64,000 nucleotides of DNA, from assembly GCA_024637295.1 (NCBI GenBank), contig JAGXFL010000002.1, forward strand, positions 1-64,000. Reading direction: 5' to 3'. The stretch is from Sulfuricurvum sp. Lineage in GTDB: Bacteria; Campylobacterota; Campylobacteria; Campylobacterales; Sulfurimonadaceae. The notes below the pieces were generated by a model that was not told the DNA's origin, searched no databases, and was given only the letters and a program-made list of their open reading frames with translations. Positions 8,776 through 34,554 of this stretch are shown piece by piece (within the stretch, counting starts at the first letter, position 1; every line of letters begins with the position of its first letter). Made by a program: the position numbers and the translations under genes.

Positions 8776-9975
8776 ATGGCAAAAGAAAAGTTTACACGTA
8801 CTAAACCACACTGTAACATCGGTACTATCGGTCACGTTGACCACGGTAAAACTACGTTGACAGCAGCAATTACCGCTGTTTTGGCAACTAAAACTGGTGC
8901 AAAATTTATGGACTACGATCAAATCGATAACGCTCCAGAAGAGCGCGAGCGCGGAATCACGATCGCTACTTCACACGTTGAGTACGAAACAGAAAATCGT
9001 CACTATGCACACGTTGACTGTCCTGGACACGCCGACTATGTTAAGAACATGATTACGGGTGCTGCTCAAATGGACGGCGCTATTCTTGTTGTTTCTGCAG
9101 CAGATGGCCCAATGCCACAAACACGTGAGCACATCCTTCTTTCTCGTCAAGTTGGTGTACCATACATCGTTGTTTTCATGAACAAAGAAGATTTGGTTGA
9201 TGATGAAGAGCTTCTTGAGCTCGTTGAGATGGAAATCCGTGAACTTCTTGATATGTACGATTTCCCAGGTGACGATACTCCAATCGTAGCTGGATCTGCA
9301 TACCAAGCGCTTGAAGAAGCGAAAAAAGGTATCATCGGTGACTGGGCTGCTAAGATCATCAAATTGATGGATGAAGTAGACCGTTATATTCCTCAGCCAG
9401 AGCGTGAAGTTGATAAAGATTTCTTGATGCCTGTAGAGGACGTTTTCTCTATCTCTGGTCGTGGAACCGTTGTTACTGGTCGTATCGAGCGTGGTACTAT
9501 CAAAATCGGTGAAACTATCGAAATCGTTGGTATCCGTGATACACAAACAACTACCGTAACGGGTGTTGAAATGTTCCGTAAAGAAATGGAAATGGGTGAA
9601 GCAGGCGATAACTGCGGAATCTTGCTTCGTGGTACTAAGAAAGAAGATGTTGAGCGTGGTCAAGTTCTTTGTAAGCCTAAATCAATCAATCCTCACACAA
9701 AATTTGAGGCAGAGATTTACGTATTGAGCAAAGAAGAGGGTGGACGTCATACTCCATTCTTTAACGGTTACCGCCCACAGTTCTATGTTCGTACTACTGA
9801 CTGTACTGGTGCAATCACTTTGCAAGAAGGTACTGAAATGGTTATGCCAGGCGATAACGTTAAAATTTTCGCTGAGTTGATTCACCCGATCGCTATGGAA
9901 GAGGGAACTCGTTTCGCTATCCGTGAGGGTGGACGTACTGTCGGTGCAGGTGTTGTTTCTAAAATCCTTGCATAA
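8776..9975 (+). CDS. tuf: Elongation factor Tu
   Basis: [36 protein letters not shown] 8776 after ggagg RBS. Confidence 0.99.
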
Positions 9976-10012
9976 TTTTACCCGACCCTAGGGTCGGAAC
10001 ATAAGGTTTAAC

Positions 10013-10165
10013 ATGCGCGAAAATATACATTTAGCTTGTGAAAAGTGCACACGTCGTAACTATCACATCACTAAGAATAAAAAAACTCATACTGAGAAGT
10101 TCTCAGCAAACAAATTTTGTAAATTCTGCCGTGAGCATACTGTTCACAAAGAAGCAAAACTTTAA
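10013..10165 (+). CDS. rpmG: 50S ribosomal protein L33 (zinc-ribbon form)
   Basis: Read by hand (below ORF cutoff): MRENIHLACEKCTRRNYHITKNKKTHTEKFSANKFCKFCREHTVHKEAKL*. Confidence 0.95.
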   Translation: MRENIHLACEKCTRRNYHITKNKKTHTEKFSANKFCKFCREHTVHKEAKL

Positions 10166-10189
10166 GTTGTCCCCTTCGGGGATTTTTAT

Positions 10190-10265
10190 AGGTCAGTAGC
10201 TCCAATGGTAGAGCGCCGGATTCCAAATCCGATGGTTGCGGGTTCGAATCCCCCCTGGCCTGCCA
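10190..10265 (+). tRNA. tRNA-Trp (CCA), CCA encoded
   Basis: Acceptor AGGTCAG/CTGGCCT, anticodon loop TTCCAAA. Confidence 0.95.
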
Positions 10266-10329
10266 CTAGCATTTTAAACTAATGATGCTTTCGGGCTTTA
10301 TTCGTTGGAAATGTCCTAAGGATCATGGT

Positions 10330-25599: not shown

Positions 25600-27114
25600 G
25601 TGAAAATCAGCTTACTCCTTTTATTTATTCTTTACCCATTATTTGCCTTTGATATATCTGGCGATTATTCTGGACTTTATCGTTATTATGACCAGAATAG
25701 AAATAGTGAAATCGGAAATTTCACTATTCAAATTAAACACAATGGCAACAAGATCAAGGGAGTAATAAAAGAGCCTAGAACTACATTTGGACCCAATGAG
25801 ACTTATTTATATTCTGATTTTGAAGGTGAAATAATTGGAAATGAAAATAATTTTGAAATTAAATTGACAAAGCAATACCGCTATAATCAAAATCATTTGG
25901 TTAATTATCACGGTAATTATAAAATTACAAATGGAGAAGTTGCTGGTGAATGGAATATAGGTGCCTACAAGGGTGACTTTAAAATATTTGGCATAAATTC
26001 TCAAGAAGAAGTTGATTTAGAAGCCCCAAAAATTCTAATCACAAAACCTTTTGTAGAATTGATAGGGAATAACTCTATGCGGGCATTAAAAATTATAAAA
26101 ATAAACACATTGGAAATTGAAGGTATTGTTTCTGATAATATTGCCATAGATTCTGTTCTTATAAATGGCGTAAAAGCGCAGCTAAAAAAACCATCAGAAG
26201 AAGAGCAGTCTATGATTATTGGCAAGAGTATGAAGTTTTTTTTATTGCTTGATCAAAATTTGTTAACAACGCAATATCATGTTGAAGTGACTGATATTAA
26301 TGGCAATAAAAATGCATTTACATTTGTTGTTGATAGAAGTAATACGTCTAATATAAAAACTGATAATATTATTTCGGAGAAAAATAAAAATAAAATTGCT
26401 GTTTTAATAGGTATAAATACATATTTGTATTGGCCTGGTCTTGAATTTTCCGTGAATGATGCCAATGCAATGGAAAGTTATTTAAAAAAGCATGGGTATA
26501 GAATAATTAAGCTTTTAAATCAAGAGGCTACGCGGGCAAATATATTAAAAACAATCGGATACAGCGTTCCTAATACAGTTAATGAAAATGATTCGGTACT
26601 TATATATTTTGCAGGACATGGTCATACAGAAAGTTTGATAGATGGAAATAAAGAAGGCTATATTATTCCAGTTGATGCTAACACAGAAGATCCATTTTTA
26701 TCAGCAATATCTATGCAACAACTAAAGAGTATCGTTAATCGAACAAAAGCAAAACATATACTTTTTTTAATGGATTCTTGTTATTCAGGTATGGGTTTTA
26801 CAAGATCAGCAGGTATCTCCAAAAATGACAATGAATATATTCGTAAAGTATCGTCGTATCGCGCTGTTCAAATGATAACAGCTGGTGGCATGAATGAACA
26901 AGTATTGGAAGAAAAAGGTCATGGTGTATTTACGCAAGCACTACTTGATGGATTAAGCGGGAAGGCTGATTTTGATAAAGATGGATTTATTACTGGAAGC
27001 GAGCTTGGTACTTTCATAAAACCTGAAGTAACGCGTAAATCAAATAATAAGCAAACTCCAAATTTTGGTAGATTTGAGGGAGAAGGAGAATTTATTTTTA
27101 ATACTCAATTTTAG
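25600..27114 (+). CDS. Secreted caspase family (peptidase C14-like) protein with EF-hand-like loop
   Basis: GTG start; signal peptide MKISLLLLFILYPLFAF; catalytic dyad motifs LIYFAGHGH and ILFLMDSCYSG; DFDKDGFITGSE loop. Confidence 0.85.
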   Translation: MKISLLLLFILYPLFAFDISGDYSGLYRYYDQNRNSEIGNFTIQIKHNGNKIKGVIKEPRTTFGPNETYLYSDFEGEIIGNENNFEIKLTKQYRYNQNHLVNYHGNYKITNGEVAGEWNIGAYKGDFKIFGINSQEEVDLEAPKILITKPFVELIGNNSMRALKIIKINTLEIEGIVSDNIAIDSVLINGVKAQLKKPSEEEQSMIIGKSMKFFLLLDQNLLTTQYHVEVTDINGNKNAFTFVVDRSNTSNIKTDNIISEKNKNKIAVLIGINTYLYWPGLEFSVNDANAMESYLKKHGYRIIKLLNQEATRANILKTIGYSVPNTVNENDSVLIYFAGHGHTESLIDGNKEGYIIPVDANTEDPFLSAISMQQLKSIVNRTKAKHILFLMDSCYSGMGFTRSAGISKNDNEYIRKVSSYRAVQMITAGGMNEQVLEEKGHGVFTQALLDGLSGKADFDKDGFITGSELGTFIKPEVTRKSNNKQTPNFGRFEGEGEFIFNTQF

Positions 27115-28661: not shown

Positions 28662-28689
28662 TTTTTTTTATTATAACCAACTGTATCCA

Positions 28690-28775
28690 GACTTTGCCAT
28701 ATTGGCATATCCGTTTCTTCGGGTCTGCCTTGTAACTGGCTTTATAAGTGAGGTTGAGAATTATCTCAGACATGC
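28690..28775 (-). pseudogene. Decayed fragment of a bpt 3' end (second copy)
   Basis: Minus strand reads LQGRPEETDMPIWQS in one frame and LNLTYKAS in another, matching Bpt C-terminus LSLSYKAD...[17 protein letters not shown]; shared blocks ccatattgg and tcttcgggtctRccttgYaa. Confidence 0.8.
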
Positions 28776-29360
28776 ATCAAGTGATCGCTTGAATTGTATT
28801 GGTACAACAATACCATTTTGTTCATGGATAATACCATATAGACCATCTTTTAACACACACCAATTACCATTTTCGAGTCTTTCAATCTCATGATAGATGA
28901 GATCAATAATTTTCTCTCCTTTTTCATCAATCACTCCTTTCAATGTATTCAATACAACTATGGCTCTGCTATTTTTAAAATCACCAGCTTGGCTATATAT
29001 TGGCACAATAATTTCATTACCTTGTTCATCAATGTATCCCCAAAGATTTTTTTTCATAATTTTTGCACGGCCCGAATAAAAATGCCAAGCTCTATCATAA
29101 ATACAAGGTGTTATCTCTTTTGAACTTTCTACTGATATAAAGCCATACTTATTTTCTCGTTTTACTACACATGCTCCTTCGGATGCAGTCCAAACATTGT
29201 CATAATCGCAAGGTATAACTTCGTGACCATCTGTATTAATTGCTCCTAATAATAAAATTTGCATTTCACGACCATTGATAAGTTTTATGCACTTCTTTCC
29301 AACAATAGCTATTCCCTCAACAAAAGCATATTTTGCATCATAAAATATATTTTTCATCAA
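28761..29360 (-). CDS. WG-repeat-containing protein
   Basis: Repeats: NKYGFISVESSKEITPCIYDRA, NLWGYIDEQGNEIIVPIYSQA, TLKGVIDEKGEKIIDLIYHEI, GLYGIIHEQNGIVVPIQF. Confidence 0.82.
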   Translation of the reverse strand: MMKNIFYDAKYAFVEGIAIVGKKCIKLINGREMQILLLGAINTDGHEVIPCDYDNVWTASEGACVVKRENKYGFISVESSKEITPCIYDRAWHFYSGRAKIMKKNLWGYIDEQGNEIIVPIYSQAGDFKNSRAIVVLNTLKGVIDEKGEKIIDLIYHEIERLENGNWCVLKDGLYGIIHEQNGIVVPIQFKRSLDACLR

Positions 29361-30799
29361 GTGTTCTTTCTTTTCATGAACTTAATTACTAAGTTCAAAC
29401 TGCGTTCAATGTATTTACTGCTTTCTAGACCGCGTAGCCTACTAATACACATCATGATGGGAATAGTTCGTTTTTGTGCCTCTCTAAAAACAAATAAGTC
29501 ACGCTTTATCAGCCCTTTTTGAGAAATACATAGATGTCCAAATGGATCATCTTTTAATACGTTGCCTCCTGCATTGTAAAAAATGATGTCAGGTTTAACT
29601 TCATTAATTAAATTTGGTAAGTATTCATATAGTAATTGTAAATATAATTCATCACCGGTATAGGATTTGAGGCCTATTAAAGTGAAGTGTTTATCGGTTT
29701 TTAGTAAATACTCTTCATCGAATTTTGTAAAAGTATTATGCAAATCAAGAACATAAAAGTTATCCATTTCTTTTGCAAATGAGATGACACCATCCCCGCA
29801 GAGTGCATCTAAATCAATATAGAGGATTTTAATATCAGGGTTGTTTTGACGCAAATGATGGGTGGCAATCGCATAATCATTAAAAAAATTCATATTTTCC
29901 CCTCTATCTCGATGAGCACGATGGAATCCTCCGCCAAGGTTAATAGCCCAACCGCTTTTGAGTGCAAGTTGCGCGGCATGAACAGTTCCTCTGCACATAG
30001 CTCTAGCAGCATCAATAAGGTTTTCATTTATCATGTAAGCAGTGATAAGGGGTGGAATAGAAAATTGTGTTATTCCTTCAATAACACTTTTGTCATGCCG
30101 TAACGATGCAAGATATGTCGGAGAATGGAAGACTTCAAGTTCATTGTCTGACATAATTTTAATATCCATACGTAACATCTCTTTATATGCAGAAATAGTA
30201 ATACGACCACGATGGTAAGCATTGATGATTGGATGAGTTTTTTTAATAGGGTCTGGATAAATATCCCTAAACACATCTTCAATATACATATTATAGTTAT
30301 GTGAAGTCAGTACATGGCGGGCTGGTAAAACAGGAGAGATAAATACATTACTCGGAGTATCAACACAGTATTCATATCTAGGAATAATATCAAAGTAAAT
30401 ATGCTGGATTGAAGCAATCTCGTCCAAAGTAGCACCTATATGGCTATAAAGGCAGTGATAAAGCCAACAATGGTGTTCTCCTTTCATCGGATGTTCTTCA
30501 CGAAATCTAAATTCGTTGTTATTATCACCATCGGCAAAATGATGAGTATATATTTTTGGTTCTGATGAAATTCCATTTAACCGCTCATTCATTGTGAAAA
30601 GCGGATAACCCGTCTCATCTGAACCATAACATTGAATTTCAACCTTCATTTCATAATCGCGTATTCCATCCACATTACCAGCAAGCTCTTTTTGAAGATT
30701 GGAATCAAGCCGAATAGCAGTCTGTACAATGCGTTTTTCAATAGCGGCGAGTTCTGTATTGATTACTTTTAGCCGCTCGATAAGTTTTGAGTCAATCAT
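29357..30799 (-). CDS. Class IV histone deacetylase-like (HDAC11-like) protein, apparent pseudoenzyme, with N-terminal extension
   Basis: WAINLGGGFHRAHRDRG, YIDLDALCGDGV, FYNAGGNVLKDDPFGHLCISQKGLIKRD match the HDAC fold motifs but zinc-ligand/catalytic positions differ. Confidence 0.75.
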   Translation of the reverse strand: MIDSKLIERLKVINTELAAIEKRIVQTAIRLDSNLQKELAGNVDGIRDYEMKVEIQCYGSDETGYPLFTMNERLNGISSEPKIYTHHFADGDNNNEFRFREEHPMKGEHHCWLYHCLYSHIGATLDEIASIQHIYFDIIPRYEYCVDTPSNVFISPVLPARHVLTSHNYNMYIEDVFRDIYPDPIKKTHPIINAYHRGRITISAYKEMLRMDIKIMSDNELEVFHSPTYLASLRHDKSVIEGITQFSIPPLITAYMINENLIDAARAMCRGTVHAAQLALKSGWAINLGGGFHRAHRDRGENMNFFNDYAIATHHLRQNNPDIKILYIDLDALCGDGVISFAKEMDNFYVLDLHNTFTKFDEEYLLKTDKHFTLIGLKSYTGDELYLQLLYEYLPNLINEVKPDIIFYNAGGNVLKDDPFGHLCISQKGLIKRDLFVFREAQKRTIPIMMCISRLRGLESSKYIERSLNLVIKFMKRKNT

Positions 30800-30842
30800 G
30801 ATAAGTTCCTTATTTTGATAAAAACATCATAGATTACAATGA

Positions 30843-30857
30843 AGACAAATAATGTCC
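30843..30857. promoter_or_regulatory. Palindromic operator-like site 1 (AGACAAATAATGTCC)
   Basis: GACA-N5-TGTC inverted repeat in the divergent intergenic region; matches site 2 at 12/15 positions. Confidence 0.5.
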
Positions 30858-30916
30858 ACAATATGTTTTATACTTCTTTTGATACAATAAACACAACTAA
30901 ACAGCAGGAATTTTAA

Positions 30917-31810
30917 ATGGAGTTATATAGACATAGAATGATTGAAGAAAATGGGCATAGTCAATTTTTAGTAGAACTATTAAACGATAAGAGAATTCTT
31001 GAATTTTTTTTAGAAGTTATTGATTCCAATATTGAATTTGTTTCAGACATAAAAATTACTTTTGAAGAGCAAGCAGATACTATAGAAGCAAAGGGAAGAA
31101 TTGATATATTTCTCACGGATGGAACAAATGCATTATTGATTGAAAATAAGATAAATGCTAATGACCAACCAAAACAGCTTGAGCGTTATAATGATTGGGC
31201 TACAGACAGTAATCTTAATTTTGAGCTTTATTATCTCAGCCCATATGGTAGTAATCCTTCAGCAGAAGGACTTGGAAAATTAAAAAATGACCAGATTAAA
31301 ATTATTTCATATTCTGAGCATATTAGAGATTGGCTAAAAAAGTGTTTGAATGAAGATGATCAAAAACAAAATGCGATAGAAGACTATCTTAGCCGATGGG
31401 ATAAATATTTTGTTAATGATTGGAGTAATGAAGATAATCAATTATATGATTTTTTTAAAGCAGTAAGTTTGATTAATCTAACAAATTTTGAACTTGAATA
31501 TGTTGACGAACCGCTCAATAAATCCCATATTCCCCACATCGTAAAAGGAAGTTTTCATCTAAATTTTGCACATCAAGGAAAAGATATAAAACTTATATAT
31601 GATAAAAATGAAAATGACATTTTTGTGAGAATGAATGCTGATGATTTTGAAGCATCTGTATTAAAACAAGATGGTTGGGAAAAATCAGGTCAGTTTTATG
31701 ATTATGTTATTTATAACATTGAAAGTATTACCGAAGAAAAATTTCCTTTTACGGTCACTATTAATAACTTCATCGATAATATCAATAAAGCATTTCGGCA
31801 TATTATTTGA
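30917..31810 (+). CDS. PD-(D/E)XK nuclease family protein
   Basis: NGHSQFLVELLND ... GRIDIFLTDGTNALLIENKINANDQPKQLERYNDW (D...ExK core). Confidence 0.78.
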   Translation: MELYRHRMIEENGHSQFLVELLNDKRILEFFLEVIDSNIEFVSDIKITFEEQADTIEAKGRIDIFLTDGTNALLIENKINANDQPKQLERYNDWATDSNLNFELYYLSPYGSNPSAEGLGKLKNDQIKIISYSEHIRDWLKKCLNEDDQKQNAIEDYLSRWDKYFVNDWSNEDNQLYDFFKAVSLINLTNFELEYVDEPLNKSHIPHIVKGSFHLNFAHQGKDIKLIYDKNENDIFVRMNADDFEASVLKQDGWEKSGQFYDYVIYNIESITEEKFPFTVTINNFIDNINKAFRHII

Positions 31811-31842
31811 ACAAAAATTTTACTTAACGGATAGGAACTTTG

Positions 31843-32289
31843 ATGCCAAAAGCCATGTATGTTATCGAACAATATGCTGCAACTGTACGGAAGAAAGATA
31901 CATTTTGGATGGTCTTTAATCGAATCTACAATAATATTCATGCGTTCAAGTTGGAAGCAATAGATGAAATACGAGATAAATATCTTCAATCAAACGAAAC
32001 AGATGAAAATGCAAGAGAAGAATTTTTGACGTTTATGAGAGACTATTTCCCCGAAGTAGCTCTTGTAGAAGTAGGTGATTTAGTCTCCACTGACATGATT
32101 GTTTGGCCTTATTTGGGAAGTATTGCGATTGATGCTGATGTCGGAAGTGACGTTTATATTGCGTTATGTGAAAAATACGGTGATCCATATCAAGACCCTA
32201 TTGCCAATCATTCCTGTTTATGGCTAATGCCACTTGATGATGCGTTAGCATTATGGAAAGAACGAGAACAGAGCTGGAAAAATCTATGA
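31843..32289 (+). CDS. Hypothetical protein
   Basis: ORF with ATG at 31843; operon position between nuclease and WYL regulator. Confidence 0.7.
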   Translation: MPKAMYVIEQYAATVRKKDTFWMVFNRIYNNIHAFKLEAIDEIRDKYLQSNETDENAREEFLTFMRDYFPEVALVEVGDLVSTDMIVWPYLGSIAIDADVGSDVYIALCEKYGDPYQDPIANHSCLWLMPLDDALALWKEREQSWKNL

Positions 32290-32314
32290 CATATCACAAG
32301 ATTAGAGGACAATA

Positions 32315-33253
32315 ATGGCGATTTTAGCCGAAAATGGATTACGTGGCAATCCCCTTCAGCACAAACGCCATGCTGAGATATTGGAGCGATTGGATAACGG
32401 TGAAGAACTTTCTATTAGTCAATTAGCCAAAGAATGGGATGTCGCACAAAAAACTATCCAACGTGATTTTGACAAACTTAAACAAATGTATCCGAATAAG
32501 GTAGAGCGTAGTGAGGATAAGAAACGCTACCGAAAGCCTATAAGCAGATGCGCCCAAAATGAAGGAGATATGGTTCTAGAAATGCTGGAGAGCATGGCAA
32601 AAGATATTGGAGTGGATTTTTATAAAAAAGCGCATCCACTTCTTAAACGTTTACAACGTCAAATTAAATCTCCATTTTATACTCGTCTTGATGTCGAAGA
32701 TATCGGTAGTAAGTTTGATATTGTAATGAGTTTGGAAAAAGCAATTGATCTTAAGCGAGAAGTAACGCTCTTTTATATCCCTTATGGCGAAAAAGAACCC
32801 AACGAGTACACCAATGTCCAACCAATCAAAGTAATCGTTTATGAAGGTTTCTGGTATCTTTTGGCACAGCACGGTAAATACACAAAAAAGTTCTATCTAA
32901 AAGCAGTACACAGCTGTGAACTTACAGATACTAGGTTTAAGCATAATCCTAAAATTATTGATAGCCTTGAAAACTCTATCAATGTATGGTTCTCTGCAAC
33001 AGAAGAGCCTTATGACGTGATCCTTTGGGTTGATCCAGAGGTGGTGACTTATTTTGAGCGAAAGCCGATTGCAAAACATCAAAAACTGTATAAAAAAAGT
33101 GACGGCAGCGCTGAGATGGTGCTAAAAATCACGAGTGAACAAGAAATCTATCCAATATTGAAGTTTTGGATGCCGACATTACGTGTTATTGAACCGGCAT
33201 GGATACAGGAAAAATTTAAGGAGATGTTGACGCAGTATTTGAATGAGTCATAG
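32315..33253 (+). CDS. WYL domain-containing transcriptional regulator
   Basis: N-terminal HTH (LSISQLAKEWDVAQKTIQRDFDKLKQMYP), WYL core EGFWYLLAQHGKYTKKFYLKAVHSCELTD. Confidence 0.88.
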   Translation: MAILAENGLRGNPLQHKRHAEILERLDNGEELSISQLAKEWDVAQKTIQRDFDKLKQMYPNKVERSEDKKRYRKPISRCAQNEGDMVLEMLESMAKDIGVDFYKKAHPLLKRLQRQIKSPFYTRLDVEDIGSKFDIVMSLEKAIDLKREVTLFYIPYGEKEPNEYTNVQPIKVIVYEGFWYLLAQHGKYTKKFYLKAVHSCELTDTRFKHNPKIIDSLENSINVWFSATEEPYDVILWVDPEVVTYFERKPIAKHQKLYKKSDGSAEMVLKITSEQEIYPILKFWMPTLRVIEPAWIQEKFKEMLTQYLNES

Positions 33254-33284
33254 TATTATGAATAAATTTAATTTATTTTAAGGT

Positions 33285-33299
33285 AGACATAATATGTCC
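33285..33299. promoter_or_regulatory. Palindromic operator-like site 2 (AGACATAATATGTCC)
   Basis: GACATA-A-TATGTC inverted repeat 44 nt before the ATG at 33343; matches site 1. Confidence 0.5.
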
Positions 33300-33342
33300 T
33301 ATTAAAACGACACAATAGTAAATCTTAAATCAGGATACTATT

Positions 33343-33657
33343 ATGCAACAATGTGAGACTCGTATATATCATCCATGTCTTTTAAAAATTTTTAGTCAAG
33401 AACAGCTAGATAAACTATCAGAACATTCAATCTGTAATATTAACAAAGATGATCAAATTTATGTTTTATTTTCCTTAATGGATTTTGGAAGTTTTGAAAT
33501 TTATTATGATGGTGAAGCAGAAAAACTAAAGAGTCCAATTATCTATGTTAAGTTTGATGAAACAGAGAAGGGAACTCGTCTGAATAGTGAGGAGTTTTGG
33601 GAACTATATATTAAAAGTAAACCGAATGATTGTGAGTGTATCCGTGTTGATCTCTAA
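33343..33657 (+). CDS. Hypothetical protein
   Basis: 104 aa ORF directly preceding and contiguous with the cREC gene. Confidence 0.6.
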   Translation: MQQCETRIYHPCLLKIFSQEQLDKLSEHSICNINKDDQIYVLFSLMDFGSFEIYYDGEAEKLKSPIIYVKFDETEKGTRLNSEEFWELYIKSKPNDCECIRVDL

Positions 33658-33658
33658 C

Positions 33659-33991
33659 GTGTACTATCAATCATGGAAGCTCTATGTCGATGATATCCGT
33701 ACACCAGATGATAAGACATTTAATGTCGCTCGTACTGTTGCAGAAGCACAAATTCTAATACGACAGCAGGGTGTCCCTGAATTTATATCGTTTGATCATG
33801 ATTTAGGTGTTGATGAGATGGGAAAACTTTTTCCAACTGGATATGATCTCGCAAAATGGATCGTTGAAATGGACATGGATGCTGTTCTTACTTTGCCAAA
33901 TGAATTTGACTTCACAGTACATTCTAAAAACCCTGTAGGTGCTGAAAATATTAGATCGTATCTCAATAATTATTTGGTATTCAAAGGATAA
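33659..33991 (+). CDS. Cyclic-phosphate processing receiver domain (cREC)-like protein
   Basis: GTG start in ORF 33587-33991; LYVDDIRTP ... EFISFDHDLGVDEMG ... FPTGYDLAKWIVEMD ... FTVHSKNPVGAENI. Confidence 0.75.
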   Translation: MYYQSWKLYVDDIRTPDDKTFNVARTVAEAQILIRQQGVPEFISFDHDLGVDEMGKLFPTGYDLAKWIVEMDMDAVLTLPNEFDFTVHSKNPVGAENIRSYLNNYLVFKG

Positions 33992-34013
33992 TTTTCTGAG
34001 AAGCTATAAAAAT

Positions 34014-34331
34014 CTATTCAATTTCAGCAATGATGCTATCAAGTACTGCTTCATCAATACTTTCCATCACGGATTTATCGTAAATAATCAAAAATGTCAC
34101 AGATTCATCGGTGATAGTGTAGTAATAGGTGCGATAGCCACCGCTTTTTCCTTTGGATTTATCGCTGTTTTTGATACGAGCTTTGAAGATGTTTTTACGG
34201 ATAGCTATAGCGTGAGTATGTTCATTTTCAAAGGATGCCATAAAAGCTATCAAATCTTCTTTGAGATGACGGTATTTTTTGGATAATCGTTTTACATCTT
34301 TGTCAAATTCAGAAAGGGTATTAAATTTCAT
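34014..34331 (-). CDS. RelE/ParE-superfamily mRNA interferase-type toxin
   Basis: MKFNTLSEFDKDVKRLSKKYRHLKEDL ... KGKSGGYRTYYYTITDESVTFLIIYDKS. Confidence 0.8.
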   Translation of the reverse strand: MKFNTLSEFDKDVKRLSKKYRHLKEDLIAFMASFENEHTHAIAIRKNIFKARIKNSDKSKGKSGGYRTYYYTITDESVTFLIIYDKSVMESIDEAVLDSIIAEIE

Positions 34332-34524
34332 TCAACAAATCACTGATTGGACGTGCTTCACCACGTTTCATTTCATCAAGTGCTTTGGCAACTTTTTGTG
34401 CAATTTTTTCTTCAGAAGAAATTTTTGGCTCAAGTATCTTAACTTCTTTTTTTGGGAGTTGTCGTAAAAAATACATCACGTGTTCAGCGACAGAATCGGA
34501 CATTTGCAGTGTAACTGTTTGCAT
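34321..34524 (-). CDS. Cognate antitoxin (small, upstream of and overlapping toxin)
   Basis: 67 aa ORF, 11 nt overlap with the toxin gene, antitoxin-first order. Confidence 0.75.
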   Translation of the reverse strand: MQTVTLQMSDSVAEHVMYFLRQLPKKEVKILEPKISSEEKIAQKVAKALDEMKRGEARPISDLLNEI

Positions 34525-34554
34525 ATTTGCTCCTTTTGTTTTTAAAATTATAAC

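Follow-up and report, generated by a model that had tools for sequence, protein, structure and literature searches.

A WYL-linked palindromic promoter element in a Sulfuricurvum island suggests a DriD/PafBC-like activator of variable defence cargo

What is the role of the two matching palindromes that flank a WYL regulator gene in this Sulfuricurvum genome? In the window, that is, the whole stretch of 64,000 nucleotides that was analysed, their placement against predicted -10 boxes makes both of them promoter parts, TGTCC being near -26 and RGACA near -36. From the computed sites, their spacing, orientation and covariation with WYL clades we infer physical binding, and the WYL regulator encoded next to the two palindromes almost certainly docks at them. 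By analogy with characterized systems, this regulator is probably a DriD/PafBC-like activator of variable defence cargo, perhaps triggered by single-stranded DNA, in a family in which no LexA was found over the cut-off in 61 genomes (partial matches covered its C-terminal part only). Three transcription units, HDAC-WG, nuclease-hyp149-WYL and hyp104-cREC, plausibly form one regulon, as site 1 is flanked by a -10 in either direction, like other divergent promoters.

The genes concerned occupy an insertion of about 5.9 kb (28662-34554), as relatives lack the block between glutaminase and bpt: in L150 and L151 the thioesterase and glutaminase genes are directly followed by bpt and prfB, and several other relatives have fusA or other genes 5' of bpt and none of the island block. 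On the minus strand lies an HDAC-like gene (PF00850; 29357-30799), overlapped by a WG-repeat protein gene (28761-29360, minus strand) with which it forms one unit. In the HDAC-like protein, DLDALCGDG replaces the DxDxHHGDG of active HDACs, and as a zinc ligand is seemingly lost, the protein is, on this reading of its sequence, probably an inactive deacetylase. The plus strand encodes a PD-(D/E)XK nuclease (30917-31810; PDDEXK_4, PADLOC candidate PDC-S26), the hypothetical protein hyp149 (31840-32289), whose homologues stand behind an equal promoter element in L033 and L079, and the WYL transcription factor (32315-33253; wHTH-WYL-WCX), the predicted reader of both sites. These are followed on the same strand by the hypothetical protein hyp104 (33343-33657), with a homologue paired with cREC in L034, and the cREC receiver-like protein (PF20274; 33650-33991), with homologues in L034 and L079. 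No BREX or CBASS core family was found among ten proteins of the region; from the gene families and the island's behaviour as an insertion we infer an anti-phage defence function. At the right end of the insertion, on the opposite strand, a RelE-like toxin is encoded together with a small likely partner (34014-34524), and no WYL-type element was seen at this pair. A caspase-like protein (Peptidase_C14; 25600-27114) is encoded near the island, outside the inserted block.

Site 1, AGACAAATAATGTCC (30843-30857, plus strand), is located in the 117 bp that separate the HDAC-like gene from the divergent nuclease gene, and site 2, AGACATAATATGTCC (33285-33299, plus strand), follows the WYL stop codon (33253) and precedes the start of hyp104 (33343), the first gene of the hyp104-cREC pair. 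The first-pass annotation had given exactly these positions, and it was also right that both 15-mers are intergenic, agree at 12 of 15 positions and share a GACA-N5-TGTC architecture, both being AGACA-N5-TGTCC. A third palindrome, AGACATTTAATGTCG (33714-33728, plus strand; GACA-N5-TGTC from 33715), which that annotation did not list, is coding, within the cREC frame, and has no -10 at the usual distance; it was rejected as a site and is probably due to chance.

The predicted -10 box of the nuclease-hyp149-WYL unit, TATACT (30869-30874, plus strand), is 11 nt past the TGTCC of site 1, and that of the HDAC-WG unit, TATGAT (30826-30831, minus strand), lies 11 nt off the other end, which would make site 1 the centre of a bidirectional promoter. 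The same mirrored arrangement, with a -10 also 11 nt on the opposite side, is found in the divergent pairs of L032/L033 (AAA+ gene), L078, L080 and L144. At site 2, a weak candidate, CACAAT (33311-33316, plus strand; four of six positions as in TATAAT), is placed 11 nt past TGTCC, ahead of the hyp104-cREC unit. This geometry extends to relatives. Among sites of two WYL clades, A and B, that were not picked by their -10, TANNNT stands 11 or 12 nt past TGTC at 13 of 17 in clade A (P = 5e-10); at 17 of 27 clade-B sites the distance is exactly 12 nt (P = 3e-15). The background is about 6% per offset. All strict clade-A sites are oriented with AGACA before TGTCC toward a start codon that follows a ribosome-binding-like sequence, and four clade-A WYL genes (L031, L032, L033, L037) have the element in their own promoter, with the shorter spacing. 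If the predicted -10 hexamers are numbered -12 to -7, TGTCC occupies -28 to -24 and AGACA -38 to -34. TAGACA, which resembles TTGACA, was considered as a -35 and discarded, as its distance to the -10 would then be 21 bp. Some clade-B sites (L027-L030) lie 3' of the WYL gene's own -10.

The WYL protein has the Pfam domains HTH_DeoR, WYL and WCX in this order, all above cut-off, and the helices and strands of its structure model match these domains (mean pLDDT 81.7; pTM 0.54, a low global confidence). A single-sequence search of solved structures yielded no match, and profile and fold searches placed DriD first, PafBC second and CapW and BrxR lower; DriD is thus the best solved relative by profile and fold, yet at only 15-18% identity. 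The locus has one WYL gene, and just one further copy was found in the genome, on another contig and 30% identical.

Close homologues (43-85% identity) occur in Sulfuricurvum, Sulfurimonas and other genera of the family. For comparison, clade A comprised eight loci, the query locus and those of seven other genomes, and clade B, a separate clade at 31-41% identity, 23 loci. Conservation of the element with the WYL gene, proposed as a check by the first-pass annotation, is complete in this clade-A set: [AG]GACA-N5-TGTCC is present within about 1.5 kb at all eight loci, versus none of the 23 in clade B (Fisher 1.3e-7). The first impression that clade B is devoid of sites was ruled out by its own, wider version, GACA-N6-TGTC, of which there are 27 in 16 of the 23 loci and a single one in clade A. 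Hardly any spacers of 2-4 or 7-10 occur in either clade. Thus, spacer length tracks the WYL protein, N5 in clade A and N6 in clade B. The separation is not absolute, as both N5 and N6 sites occur in larger stretches of several clades, some of them beside a second WYL gene; read from these loci, the spacer code is one of N5 and N6 with a clade preference near the WYL gene. At the clade-B loci L009-L030 (for example L009 2454 and L022 2928), the distance from TGTC to the -10 is also 12 nt, as in a second regulon of like design. In L036, a stop codon interrupts a clade-A WYL gene (9375-10320) that has no site nearby; a composite of element and -10 (L084 8436) is located 18 kb from it on the same contig. 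A scan of viral contigs found no relative, and a plasmid search returned distant WYLs only (27-35%).

Could the palindromes have arisen by chance in AT-rich DNA? The bare GACA-N5-TGTC is indeed common, with four occurrences in the window versus 0.89 expected and 36 in the 2.17 Mb genome versus 12 for the reversed control in a pattern search. However, the genome-wide scan for the motif that had been suggested finds the strict AGACA-N5-TGTCC just five times, and sites 1 and 2 are the only matches outside long open reading frames, the remaining three being within such frames and without a -10 behind them. Together with the conservation and the -10 phase in other genomes, this makes coincidence exceedingly improbable, and it is the comparative result, all close-WYL loci versus none of the other clade, that decides the matter. 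Alternatively, a different protein, be it a sigma factor or an unrelated regulator, might read the element and have the WYL gene merely as one of its targets, in keeping with the element's presence at many non-WYL genes and with composite matches that are distant from any recognised WYL. This we hold to be very unlikely, as the N5/N6 spacer changes with the WYL clade and the core is that of the DriD operator. Moreover, of 31 matches to the element plus -10 in 151 genomes, 22 are within 20 kb of a WYL gene, versus 0.3 expected; outside the query clade these numbers are 9 of 17 versus 0.17.

If the WYL protein is the reader, it could still act as a repressor, as the first-pass annotation had assumed by analogy with BrxR and CapW: an unliganded dimer on -38 to -24 would block RNA polymerase, and infection or damage would derepress the three units jointly. 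The defence-linked WYLs so far tested, BrxR and CapW, do repress, and the proposed Acinetobacter repressor BrxR, whose site extends from -51 to -27 and has 5 nt between its half-sites, covers the -35 (PMC9122589). Near-consensus -10 boxes at many sites also count in favour of a repressor, and a WYL gene inside its own regulated unit, together with toxic-looking cargo, is compatible with repression too; the weak -10 of site 2 and the clade-B sites 3' of a WYL gene's own -10 have likewise to be counted among the difficulties of an activator. However, a free-standing repressor operator needs neither fixed phase nor direction, and so the fixed 11/12-bp phase and uniform direction, which several WYL clades and a large number of unrelated promoters share, do not support the repressor analogy. 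The sites of the CBASS repressor CapW overlap the -10 (PMC9122588) and R-BOX1 of the BREX repressor BrxR is just 3' of it (PMC9122601), and the closest structures are those of activators. While the assignment of the sites to a WYL regulon therefore stands, as their presence and spacer follow the clade, repression appears unlikely, and activation is favoured by the fixed phase and direction, the layout shared with DriD, PafBC and SiwR and the fold ranking. The further proposal that one WYL regulator coordinates three units is plausible, given the promoter anatomy at both sites and the lack of the whole block in relatives.

How would such an activator work? The promoter code RGACA-N5-TGTCC-N10/11-TANNNT would house the WYL binding sites. 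By analogy, a ligand in the WYL domain, perhaps single-stranded DNA, could activate a WYL dimer, which on the dyad would compensate for the missing -35 and recruit or stabilise RNA polymerase on the -10, like DriD and PafBC. Site 1 would then fire in both directions, into HDAC-WG on one side and nuclease-hyp149-WYL on the other, and as the WYL gene is part of its own activated unit, a positive feedback loop would result. With site 2 driving hyp104-cREC, all three units of the inserted island could be switched on together.

In relatives, the genes behind or beside the elements encode Sir2, 5'-nucleotidase, ExoX-like exonuclease, GmrSD and AAA+ proteins, and further cargo comprises NT5C, kinase-like, PcfJ, DUF2779 and cREC proteins. 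WYL loci in another family of the order encode HDAC-like, PDDEXK_4 and metallophosphatase proteins, and the HDAC-like, nuclease and WYL genes thus recur together outside the genus. At L135 (7855) and L136 (13652), from another family, a separate AGACA-N6-TGTCT stands at the HDAC-like gene, followed after 11 nt by TAATAT and adjoined by an N5 element of opposite orientation. In L143 (8210-10570), DarT, a macro-domain protein and a WYL regulator are encoded in one operon behind AGACATTATATGTCC-N11-TACAAT; L140 has ADP-ribosylglycohydrolase cargo, and in L145 (8533) the element, with TATAAT at 11 nt, is 5' of a gene set that includes Cas_TM1802. The mobile-element-like loci L088 and L099, with a very divergent WYL (24-25%), carry the N5 element, and in L088 it stands 5' of a single-strand binding protein gene, which is suggestive for a regulator that senses single-stranded DNA. 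Recurrent families behind these promoters (L033 16456-17052, L037 592-2782, L086 2241-2984), of which the tested ones are without a Pfam match, are candidates for new defence families.

In a phylum-wide sample, the composite element was found in 41 of 397 genomes, some with clusters of two or three, and a WYL gene at 7 of 12 loci fetched, which suggests that the WYL-element design recurs across Campylobacterota. For the motif matches in L138, L139, L141 and L142, the stretch retrieved contains no WYL gene, and they may be due to chance or to another system; in L138 and L139, from another family, the element is 5' of repeated paralogous genes. A bolder scenario, which we put forward tentatively, is that Campylobacterota carry a portable SOS-like switch, in which WYL activators and a constant element, a DriD-type dyad at the PafBC -26 position, would turn on a whole defence repertoire upon DNA damage or the appearance of phage single-stranded DNA. 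Its cargo, borne on islands and mobile elements, would change freely, from HDAC-like, nuclease, Sir2 and DarT-macro domain to ADP-ribosylglycohydrolase, GmrSD, cREC and Cas genes. For a lineage without LexA, this would be a candidate damage response. The analysis provides a searchable, precise promoter code for a WYL-controlled defence regulon, usable to find co-regulated, as yet unnamed defence genes, and argues that some defence-linked WYLs activate rather than repress.

In uniting the DriD dyad with the PafBC -26 spacing, a single element combines two activator signatures that were described separately. DriD of Caulobacter is a WYL activator of the SOS-independent DNA-damage response that is triggered by single-stranded DNA; its target, ATACGAC-N7-GTCGTAT, is bound asymmetrically, overlaps the -35 and keeps the same distance to the -10 from promoter to promoter (PMC12340889). 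The DriD oligonucleotide ATACGACAGTAACTGTCGTAT has the same GACA-N5-TGTC core that is present in all clade-A loci, and overlap with the -35 at a constant distance from the -10 (for DriD, the comparison extends to the constancy of this distance), asymmetric use of a near-palindrome and several promoters are common to both. In contrast to DriD, the flanks here are A/G..C instead of ATAC..GTAT, the targets are defence-type islands, and many -10 boxes are near consensus. The PafBC motif TGTCGG-N10-TANNNT is equivalent to TGTC-N12-TANNNT (PMC8151990), PafB reading the -26 element while PafC holds sigma (PMC11804915). TGTC likewise lies exactly 12 nt 5' of TANNNT here, or 11 in some WYL genes' own promoters, and the PafBC regulon, too, is LexA-independent (PMC8151990, PMC11804915). 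However, PafBC, which acts by sigma adaptation, is a mycobacterial heterodimer and needs polymerase to bind DNA, whereas a single WYL gene is found here, and PafBC promoters are not described as requiring a GACA partner half-site. SiwR, a mycobacterial WYL activator, needs the -26 region for activation (PMC10693628) and shares a palindrome between the -35 and -10 of the regulated operon, but this palindrome has 19 bp, conserves GGA at -26 and serves one neighbouring operon. With BrxR and CapW, our locus has in common a WYL regulator in a defence locus, inverted repeats and, for BrxR, more than one site per island; their half-sites, however, are 10-11 bp long, their profile and fold match to our protein is weaker, and, Acinetobacter BrxR excepted, their sites lie at or 3' of the -10, whereas the site described here, by its predicted -10, is at about -38 to -24.
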